A DNA stretch of 64,000 nt from Candidatus Gastranaerophilales bacterium (GTDB taxonomy: Bacteria; Cyanobacteriota; Vampirovibrionia; Gastranaerophilales; CAJFVJ01): NCBI GenBank assembly GCA_944323485.1, contig CALUSR010000004.1, forward strand, positions 1-64,000, given 5' to 3'. The stretch's first letter is position 1, and every line of letters begins with the position of its first letter. This document shows positions 37,854-57,765 of the stretch, piece by piece. The translations under genes and the position numbers were made by a program. The notes under the pieces were generated by a model. The model had not been told where the DNA came from, searched no databases, and worked only from the letters and a program-made list of their open reading frames with translations.

Positions 37854-38016
37854 TAATATTTCTTCATATTTTATAAAAATATAGATATAAAATATATATA
37901 TTTTTTCTTTTTTATATGTATATTTTTTCTTTATTTTTTCAATATTTAAAAATGAAAAATCCTGAAAAGCCTTGTGTTCAAGTGTTTTGCTGTATCTGGC
38001 TTTTTAAAAAGAATAC

Positions 38017-38045
38017 GCAATTTTCTTGTAGTTTTTGTTTTTATA
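38017..38045 (+). promoter_or_regulatory. GCAA-N17-TTTTTATA element
   Basis: GCAA (38017-38020), 17 bases ending in TTG, then TTTTTATA (38038-38045), 52 bases before the ATG at 38097. It is the plus-strand copy of the element shared with the genes near 44, 56.5 and 57.3 kb. Confidence 0.5.
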
Positions 38046-38096
38046 AATATATAGGGTAGATGAAAATTCAAAAGGATATGCTGGAGGTTATAGGTT

Positions 38097-38543
38097 ATGT
38101 ATGCAATGTTAACGACTAGAAAGTTGATGATTATCAGTCAAATTTCTGACTTGCAGTTTCAAATCACTCAACTTTATCAAAATCAAATGGATTTGACTTC
38201 TCTCGGCGGTGTAATCGGTGATGGTACTGTGACTCAACAAGAGTTTGCAAATTCAGGACAGAAGACAAAATACGGTGTAAACCAAATCTTGATGGAAGCT
38301 GATTCTGCATCTCAAACATCCGGGTATACATTTGTTCAGATGTCAACAGATGGTATGGGGTCTATGGTTTTTGATGAAACTTATTTGACTAATATTCAAG
38401 CCCAGATAAGCAATTCTGAAAAACAAATAGAGATGAAAAGAGAACAGCTTGAAACAAAATTGGCAGCATTACAACAGGAACTGCAGGCTGTTGAACAAGG
38501 TGAAGAACAGGGTATTAAACAATCAGTTCCAAGGTATGCATAA
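38097..38543 (+). CDS. Coiled-coil small protein, paralogue of 56.5/57.3 kb genes
   Basis: The 148-residue protein begins YAMLTTRKLMIISQISDLQF and ends in NSEKQIEMKREQLETKLAAL-type coiled coil followed by GEEQGIKQSVPRYA. Both ends match the two minus-strand paralogues (56110-56505 and 56870-57265), while the middle (about 45-100) differs. No signal peptide or membrane segment is seen. Two amphipathic helices around a variable middle suggest a protein that self-assembles or binds a partner. It has its own element and terminator. Undescribed family as far as I can tell. Confidence 0.75.
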   Translation: MYAMLTTRKLMIISQISDLQFQITQLYQNQMDLTSLGGVIGDGTVTQQEFANSGQKTKYGVNQILMEADSASQTSGYTFVQMSTDGMGSMVFDETYLTNIQAQISNSEKQIEMKREQLETKLAALQQELQAVEQGEEQGIKQSVPRYA

Positions 38544-56109: not shown

Positions 56110-56505
56110 TTAAGCGTATTTAGGTGTGGCGTTTTTGATGCCCTGTTCTTCACCTTTTTCAACGGCTTCTAATTCGGTTTGTTTTGCTTGTAATTGTGTT
56201 TGAAGACGTTTTGATTCCATCTCAATTTGTTTTTCTGCGTTGCTTATTCTTTTTAATGTTCCGTTAGGATCTTGCAGTGAATTTACATTAGCATTTGGTG
56301 AGGCATTTGCAATGGCCTGATCAAGAGCTGCCTGGTCAAACTGTCCAGTTGTAAAGTTGTAATAAGATTGAGCCTGTGCAGTGTAAGCACTGCTCAGCTG
56401 TGATAAATCCTGTTGTTTCATAGTTAATTCTGTTAAACGATACTGAAGATCATTGATCTGGTTGACGAGCATGATCTTTCTTGAACAAAACATTGCGTAG
56501 CCCAT
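56110..56505 (-). CDS. Coiled-coil small protein, paralogue A
   Basis: The 131-residue protein begins MGYAMFCSRKIMLVNQINDL and ends with an AEKQIEMESKRLQTQLQAKQ coiled coil and KGEEQGIKNATPKYA. AAGGAG is seven bases before the ATG. It is about 80% identical to paralogue B (56870-57265) by eye and shares its ends with the plus-strand gene at 38097. No export signal, membrane segment or catalytic motif is seen. The two copies vary mainly in the middle (Phe/Met after GQ, then the ANASPN region). The family is undescribed as far as I know. Confidence 0.8.
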   Translation of the reverse strand: MGYAMFCSRKIMLVNQINDLQYRLTELTMKQQDLSQLSSAYTAQAQSYYNFTTGQFDQAALDQAIANASPNANVNSLQDPNGTLKRISNAEKQIEMESKRLQTQLQAKQTELEAVEKGEEQGIKNATPKYA

Positions 56506-56589
56506 AATGTAACTCCTTTTCTCTAATTAATTTGTGGTTAAAAATGTGTGACTTAGAAATGTGGTTTGATATTTTTTATCTCTTGTATA

Positions 56590-56618
56590 TATAAAAACAA
56601 TATACTTTTTAAAGTTGC
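56590..56618 (-). promoter_or_regulatory. GCAA-N17-TTTTTATA element
   Basis: On the minus strand GCAA (56615-56618), 17 bases ending in TTG, TTTTTATA (56590-56597), followed by TATACAAGAG. It is 85 bases upstream of paralogue A's ATG. Confidence 0.5.
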
Positions 56619-56644
56619 TAAAAATGTTTGCCATAAAAACGAAA

Positions 56645-56683
56645 AATCGCCAAACCTCTTGTGTAACAAGATATTTGGCGATT
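56645..56683 (-). terminator. Terminator of paralogue B (homologous copy 1)
   Basis: AATCGCCAAA (56645-56654) pairs with TTTGGCGATT (56674-56683), with an inner CTTGT/ACAAG stem. On the minus strand TTTTTC follows. The conserved ACATTTCTTAA (plus strand, 56687-56697) flanks it, as at 57457. Confidence 0.7.
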
Positions 56684-56699
56684 GTCACATTTCTTAACA

Positions 56700-56862
56700 T
56701 TTTAATCAAGTACGGAAGTTAAACATCTGAGCACATTGAAATAACAGTGATTCAGATACCTGCAGCCGGTTTGCAACTCTCTGAATTGGTCGTTGCTAAC
56801 CAACCGGTATTAACCATAAGTGTTGTGTACGTTCGGTTATAAACCTGAAATATTATACGTTA
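56700..56862 (-). ncRNA. Candidate structured RNA or 3' UTR
   Basis: This stretch lies between paralogue B and its terminator and is clearly less AT-rich than neighbouring gaps. On the minus strand a TATAAT (about 56854-56859) starts it. ACCGGTT can pair with AACCGGC, TTGGT with ACCAA, and ATCTGA with TCAGAT. No frame longer than about 21 codons exists on the minus strand. It matches no RNA family I can name. It may simply be a structured untranslated tail. Confidence 0.3.
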
Positions 56863-56869
56863 TTTCTTA

Positions 56870-57265
56870 CTAAGCGTACTTAGGTGTAGCGTTTTTGATG
56901 CCCTGTTCTTTGCCTTGAGAAATAGCTTCTAATTCGGTTTGCTTAGCTTGAAGTTGAGTTTGGAGTCGTTTTGATTCCATCTCGATTTGTTTTTCAGCAT
57001 TGCTTATTTGCTGCAGTGTACCGTTTGGATCCTGTAGAGAATTTACATTTGTTCCCGGAGCTGCATTGTTGATTGCTTCATCAAGTGCATCCTGATCCAT
57101 CTGACCGGTTGTAAAGTTGTAATACTGTTGAGCTTGTGTAGTGTAAGCACTGCTCATTTGTGATAAATCCTGTTGTTTCATCGTCAATTCGGTCAATCTA
57201 TACTGCAAGTCATTAATCTGGCTTACGAGCATAATTTCCCTGGAACTAAACATTGCGTATCCCAT
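56870..57265 (-). CDS. Coiled-coil small protein, paralogue B
   Basis: The 131-residue protein begins MGYAMFSSREIMLVSQINDL and ends GKEQGIKNATPKYA. It is a close copy of paralogue A with differences such as QQYYNFTTGQMDQDALDEAI in the middle. AAAAGGAG precedes the ATG and the 5' leader is conserved between the two (AATTAGRGAAAAGGAGTTAC). The proximal copy of the shared element lies 74 bases upstream and a distal one about 276 bases upstream. Heptad-like C-terminal helices suggest oligomers. Confidence 0.8.
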   Translation of the reverse strand: MGYAMFSSREIMLVSQINDLQYRLTELTMKQQDLSQMSSAYTTQAQQYYNFTTGQMDQDALDEAINNAAPGTNVNSLQDPNGTLQQISNAEKQIEMESKRLQTQLQAKQTELEAISQGKEQGIKNATPKYA

Positions 57266-57338
57266 AGTGTAACTCCTTTTCCCTAATTAAAATGTGGTAA
57301 ATGTGATAAGTGAGATTTAAATTTACTCCTCTTGTATA

Positions 57339-57367
57339 TATAAAAACTTTTTATTTTAGAAAAGTGC
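57339..57367 (-). promoter_or_regulatory. GCAC-N17-TTTTTATA element (proximal)
   Basis: On the minus strand GCAC (57364-57367), 17 bases ending in AAG, TTTTTATA (57339-57346), followed by TATACAAGAG. One upstream-box base differs from GCAA. Confidence 0.5.
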
Positions 57368-57406
57368 TAATTTTATATCTCTGTTATATATCATTTATAA
57401 TGCAAA

Positions 57407-57442
57407 AATGCCAAAACCCTTATAAATAAGGTATTTGGCATT
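57407..57442 (-). terminator. Terminator, homologous copy 2
   Basis: AATGCCAAA (57407-57415) pairs with TTTGGCATT (57434-57442), with inner CCTTAT/ATAAGG. On the minus strand TTTTTG follows. It resembles the hairpin at 56645-56683 with compensating base changes in the stem, and the flanking ACATTTCTTAA recurs at 57457-57467. Confidence 0.7.
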
Positions 57443-57535
57443 ATAAAATTGTTGTAACATTTCTTAATAATAGCATCTATATTAAGAACTTTTTATTTGA
57501 TTAAATTTATGGGGAGGATTTTTTATTTTCTTTAT
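57443..57535 (-). ncRNA. Candidate small RNA from CDS-less unit
   Basis: The interval between the distal element (57541-57569) and terminator copy 2 has no coding frame on the minus strand. The predicted transcript would be about 125 nt including the terminator. It carries CCTCCCC near its 5' end (57511-57517 on the plus strand reads GGGGAGG), which could pair with purine-rich ribosome sites. It may be an sRNA, or the remains of a deleted third paralogue. The remaining gap from 57570 to 57765 is AT-rich with nothing recognised. Confidence 0.3.
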
Positions 57536-57540
57536 GTATA

Positions 57541-57569
57541 TATAAAAACGATATACTTAAAATAATTGC
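57541..57569 (-). promoter_or_regulatory. GCAA-N17-TTTTTATA element (distal)
   Basis: On the minus strand GCAA (57566-57569), 17 bases ending in TCG, TTTTTATA (57541-57548), followed by TATACATAAAG. It is not followed by a coding sequence before the terminator at 57407-57442. Confidence 0.45.
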
Positions 57570-57765
57570 TAGTATATATTTTTATTTATTGAATATATAT
57601 TGAATAAATTTGCATTAGGCTTTATTTTACTGCATTTATGGCAAAAATGAAATGTAAATATTTCGTAATAATATATATTAAATTATATATTATTACATAT
57701 AATCTAATCTGCTTTTTGTTTCTTATTTTTGAAATCTTTTAAAGATATAACGTTTGAAAAAATCT

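Follow-up and report, generated by a model that had tools for sequence, protein, structure and literature searches.

Small RNAs whose C-rich, single-stranded motifs pair with Shine-Dalgarno regions are known from Gram-positive bacteria, RsaE/RoxS and LhrC being examples. LhrC is the subject of a published study (PMC4132741). In cyanobacteria, Yfr1 is nearly universal, its ACUCCUCACAC being flanked by two stem-loops (PMC2190773). Yfr1 and Yfr10 have in common a CU-rich motif that is ultraconserved and single-stranded, and otherwise differ in structure and expression (PMC6778093); target binding by both requires the UCCU of this motif (PMC2190773, PMC6778093). The sigma28-dependent sRNAs of E. 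coli are reported to be derived from UTRs (PMC10578931). A literature search for small RNAs of Gastranaerophilales, an order of largely uncultured gut bacteria, yielded no paper.

The window analysed here, i.e., the whole stretch of 64,000 nucleotides, belongs to a genome of Candidatus Adamsella (Gastranaerophilales); the closest relative compared was Candidatus Adamsella avium, a member of the same genus. On the minus strand, the locus consists of a pdxJ-like gene, an ORF of 91 amino acids, a unit without coding sequence, paralogue B and paralogue A, in this order. An initial annotation had described the unit as a promoter element (57541-57569) and a terminator (57407-57442) without a gene, and had suggested either a decayed third paralogue or an sRNA. 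Both elements were found, the promoter being slightly longer. The features of the region are:

57533-57573, minus: promoter of the unit, AGCAATTATTTTAAGTATATCGTTTTTATATATACA (49 bits, top matrix match within the window)
57404-57530, minus: putative non-coding transcript, about 125 nt, without ORF (91.5% identity in Ca. Adamsella avium; fold z = -2.9)
57511-57518, minus: UCCUCCCC, anti-Shine-Dalgarno-like seed, predicted to be single-stranded (identical in the relative)
57461-57488, minus: hairpin 1, with 9 bp or more in its stem (stem identical, loop different between the two species)
57404-57442, minus: predicted intrinsic terminator of the unit, hairpin at 57407-57442 and U-run at 57404-57406 (from fold and homology to the terminator of B)
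57331-57371, minus: promoter of paralogue B, of the unit's class (matrix score)
56870-57265, minus: paralogue B, uncharacterised protein of 131 aa, without Pfam match above the cut-off (ORF, protein search)
56690-56869, minus: structured, highly conserved 3'UTR of B (99.4% identity to the relative)
56640-56697, minus: TTAAGAAATGT and terminator 3' of paralogue B, homologous to those of the unit (0 of 2000 shuffles)
56582-56622, minus: promoter of paralogue A, of the unit's class (matrix score)
56110-56505, minus: paralogue A, 131 aa (ORF, protein search)

The unit is probably, with slightly better than even chances, a trans-acting small RNA of this genus with an exposed anti-Shine-Dalgarno seed. 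Promoter, terminator, absence of a coding sequence and predicted accessibility of the seed are read from the sequence and its conservation; transcription, exact ends, pairing in trans, targets and repression are what we infer. RNA polymerase would initiate at the strong promoter, with the 5' end predicted about 7 nt past a -10-like box, and a transcript of about 125 nt would terminate at the intrinsic terminator. In its unstructured 5' part, UCCUCCCC would stay single-stranded, 5' of two hairpins, and could pair in trans with G-rich ribosome-binding sites of the GGGGAGGA type in selected mRNAs, the translation of which would thereby be lowered. The sRNA half of the earlier suggestion gains support, because the arrangement and the seed are kept in the sister species, the promoter is strong, its class drives other transcripts without coding sequence, and the seed recurs in an sRNA found throughout the order (see below).

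The coding part is indeed missing: the longest internal frame starting with ATG has 11 codons, and its ATG is absent in Ca. Adamsella avium, which likewise possesses no coding sequence at this spot. The promoter, the stretch without coding sequence, the seed and both hairpins are kept there. Identities between the two species amounted to 85% (with gaps) at 57570-57765 and 97% in the promoter core, and to 100% both in the spacer up to the promoter of B and in the leader of B; the B proteins are 98% identical. There was 1 change within the 35 bp of the promoter core and none in the next 26 nt (57535-57510), which include UCCUCCCC. The region 57505-57569 showed 2 changes in 65 bp, with P ~0.04 when compared with the flank rate of 9.7% and P = 0.14 at the genome-wide rate. 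Changes at positions which are paired in both species (1 of 43) versus elsewhere (10 of 90; Fisher P = 0.10) are only suggestive of a lower rate in the stems. This evidence from conservation is weak, since only two genomes, about 92% identical overall, carry the unit. The body of the unit was not found outside the genus, other matches consisting of the promoter alone or of scattered AT-rich pieces. Four matches to the terminator arm (query 106-130) proved on inspection to be located beside tRNA genes, or to be coding-like or otherwise unrelated; for two further matches of promoter plus CCUCC elsewhere in the order, inspection revealed no apparent sRNA-like context. Rfam gave nothing at the gathering threshold for the unit, with chance-level matches below.

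The RNA 57400-57535 was predicted to fold with -24.3 kcal/mol (z = -2.9). The segment CCUCCCC, which had been pointed out near the 5' end of the RNA, was located there, and UCCUCCCC lies 17 nt past the promoter core; this 8-mer is unchanged in Ca. Adamsella avium, with which the comparison within the genus was made, and is 98% unpaired in the predictions for both species. Its occurrence by chance in a stretch of 128 nt would be expected with a probability of ~8e-4 at its genome-wide rate. A search for the complement, GGGGAGGA, in both Adamsella genomes showed a mild excess of exact sites over the reversed control (27 vs 18 in the host genome, 29 vs 14 in the relative), the majority being inside genes. 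A candidate target in both species is a gene starting with GUG and containing GGGGGAGGAG (predicted duplex -17.7 kcal/mol); judging by the N-terminus, we presume a resemblance to ribonucleotide reductase. Control of neighbouring genes, as had been considered, is unsupported for A and B, which look like poor targets: the duplexes predicted with their leaders are weak (-9.3 and -9.1 kcal/mol, respectively, vs about -18 kcal/mol for the best sites).

It appears fairly unlikely that the unit is a non-functional relic, transcribed or not, whose promoter and terminator remained from duplication or loss of a gene, either a decayed third paralogue or an ancestral upstream gene. Such an origin would agree with a body which is confined to one genus and diverges for the most part at about the genomic rate, and with the homology between the terminators of the unit and of B (56645-56683), which is real as had been proposed: none of 2000 dinucleotide shuffles reached the local score of 42 (maximum 31), one C-G pair is exchanged for U-A and one C-G pair is inserted, and TTAAGAAATGT is present next to both (57467 and 56697, minus strand) and nowhere else in the window. 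However, the DNA from the terminator of the unit to the start codon of B aligns continuously with that from the terminator of B to the start codon of A, most strongly in the terminator, the promoter and the region of the ribosome site, and weakly in between. One tandem duplication of a block consisting of terminator, promoter and coding sequence therefore accounts for the homology without a third paralogue; as judged from the alignment, such a single duplication may be the origin, its weak middle part leaving room for other histories. A terminator homologous to that of B, as a third paralogue should have, is thus present and equally explained by the block duplication. A coding remnant of A or B was not detected at 57407-57569: a protein search with B as query gave no match in this interval, its matches being A, B and a third copy (C, at 38100-38540). 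An A/B-type leader is also lacking: the 5' part of the unit compared with the leader of A or B scored no higher than shuffles, while the score between the leaders of B and A was reached by 0 of 1000 shuffles. Without coding remnant and A/B-type leader, and with the state lacking a coding sequence being common to both species, a decayed third paralogue of A and B is needless, and this half of the earlier suggestion is given up. Against a relic of any kind speak the same common state and missing remnant, and the promoter and 5' segment, which change somewhat less than the flank. It is further disfavoured because neither the A nor the B promoter comes as close to the consensus as that of the unit, which is unlike the outcome of decay.

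Quite improbable is a cis-acting leader, in which read-through past the terminator into B would occur and the hairpins would act as an attenuator adjusting B. The unit and B have the same direction, the terminator is separated by 37 bp from the core of the B promoter, and the order is identical in both species, but a complete B promoter of the unit's class is located downstream of the terminator; in addition, the predicted minimum-energy and centroid structures both contain the terminator, and an antiterminator is not evident. A role as an RNA sponge or in protein binding, with UCCUCCCC not being an mRNA-pairing seed, might fit a small and mostly single-stranded RNA, yet is very improbable, since UCCUCCCC is the segment in common with the order-wide sRNA and complementary to ribosome-binding sites, and no protein partner is known.

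Downstream of B, the 3'UTR (99.4% identity to the relative, vs 97.5% for the coding sequence of B) is structured when taken together with the terminator (z = -3.2), and its loop AUUCAGA could pair with UCUGAAU as a predicted pseudoknot. A search with this 3'UTR RNA gave no match outside the genus.

The promoter class is defined by AGCAATT-N14-GTTTTTATATATACA, and the unit possesses both blocks at the fixed spacing. When the 221 bp of the unit were used as query, matches in other families covered chiefly the promoter part; around these matches, AGCAATT and GTTTTTATATATACA occurred at constant spacing, mostly 11-150 nt upstream of an ORF. The element as a specific feature of A and B was ruled out, the class being spread across the order, where it usually drives short proteins. 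A scoring matrix was trained solely on sites from other families (18 sites in the version used on shuffled windows). It ranked, within the window, the unit (49 bits) before A (41), B (35), site 44087 (25) and paralogue C (24), with the next site at 11 bits and shuffled windows at 15.6 or less; the top rank of the unit is partly circular, since the training sites were found via similarity to its element, and this circularity is smaller for A, B, 44087 and C. Site 44087 (minus strand) is positioned upstream of an ORF of 347 aa starting with MTSVNGYSNYSQSGMY, and paralogue C is a third intact copy at 38013-38543 (plus strand). In the host genome, promoters of this class are also present upstream of a multicopy RNA which ends in a terminator and has no coding sequence ahead of it; this RNA exists in three near-identical and two divergent copies with the common 5' end TAGAGAGGAAAACAA:

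G000 C1:34241, C3:288851 and C6:8824, plus: copies L007, L008 and L013
G000 C3:297381 and C5:43663, minus: copies L009 and L020

A further case from family f5 (L030, region G012:C167:656-734) combines the same promoter class with about 90 nt, a terminator and no ORF. Together with the multicopy RNA it makes a promoter and terminator without a gene a recurring theme.

Besides the unit, two intergenic UCCUCCCC sites which are conserved in both species have terminators directly downstream, and both are preceded by TAAAG-N-GCCGATAA (sigma28-like). A pattern search for this arrangement was positive in 16 of 192 genomes of the order, with 0 control matches; most of the loci represent one conserved RNA, while L178-L180 appear unrelated. 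The covariance model R1, built from 13 sequences of this RNA, matched 189 of the 192 genomes and all 45 of 45 genera, usually once per genome; in a draw of 244 genomes of the phylum, it matched members of the order and nothing else. The representative in the host genome lies outside the window:

G000:C6:92050-92124, minus: order-wide sRNA, about 73 nt, with terminator, often with sigma28-like promoter (L182, L151)

All of the 50 loci read out contained the core ACCUCCUCCCCAAGUCU(A/G)GU, with UCCUCCCC inside the invariant ACCUCCUCCCCAAGUCU; a strict GCCGATA-type box was present in 14 of 50, and looser variants in many more. The 5' hairpin covaries (41 two-sided changed cells; score 0.270 vs 0.106 shuffled, on an alignment fitted to the model). 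Since Rfam searches with the tested loci gave nothing at the gathering threshold, this sRNA is apparently uncatalogued. The unit was absent from the R1 matches up to E = 10; it has the seed in common with the order-wide sRNA, not the family; it also has, as that sRNA does, UCCUCCCC in a segment predicted to be unpaired upstream of a terminator. Through this seed, the unit might act on overlapping targets as a second input under different control. A second sigma28-like C-rich RNA (L138, L167; G000:C2 ~425060-425141, minus strand) consists of AAAACCUCCUCCCCUUUAAGUCUU and a terminator, is without 5' hairpin and is conserved in the sister species. Inspection of two more conserved UCCUCCCC sites (L128/L137, L144/L162) showed no clear terminator-ended unit.

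A near-universal sRNA and a second, dissimilar sRNA with the motif alone, under different control, would correspond to Yfr1 and Yfr10. The motifs differ, as Yfr1 has ACUCCUCACAC, the order-wide sRNA (A)CCUCCUCCCC and the unit UCCUCCCC, and the seed of the unit is predicted in a free 5' part rather than between two hairpins. The Yfr1 motif is absent from the sequence of the unit, and an Rfam match to it was not found; the resemblance would be one of design, and homology with Yfr RNAs is not claimed. RsaE/RoxS and LhrC have a similar C-rich motif, with different promoters and hosts, their sequence relation to the unit being compared via Rfam only. The sigma28-dependent sRNAs of E. coli resemble the order-wide sRNA in its frequent TAAAG-N-GCCGATAA promoter and not the unit, which has another promoter class, and they differ in being UTR-derived.

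As a kind, the unit is ordinary; the order-wide sRNA family is what it led to. Tentatively, Gastranaerophilales could possess a C-rich sRNA system of two levels, comparable to Yfr1/Yfr10: an order-wide sRNA and lineage-specific sRNAs with the same seed, such as the unit, which would use an order-wide promoter class otherwise serving small uncharacterised proteins. We regard this whole reading as possible, with the balance of probability somewhat against it. If the sRNA interpretation of the unit is right, it is a concrete candidate for which a seed is predicted and targets can be tested, and it draws attention to an order-wide sRNA with much stronger support and to a promoter class common to several families, both of which could be tested in existing gut metatranscriptomes.
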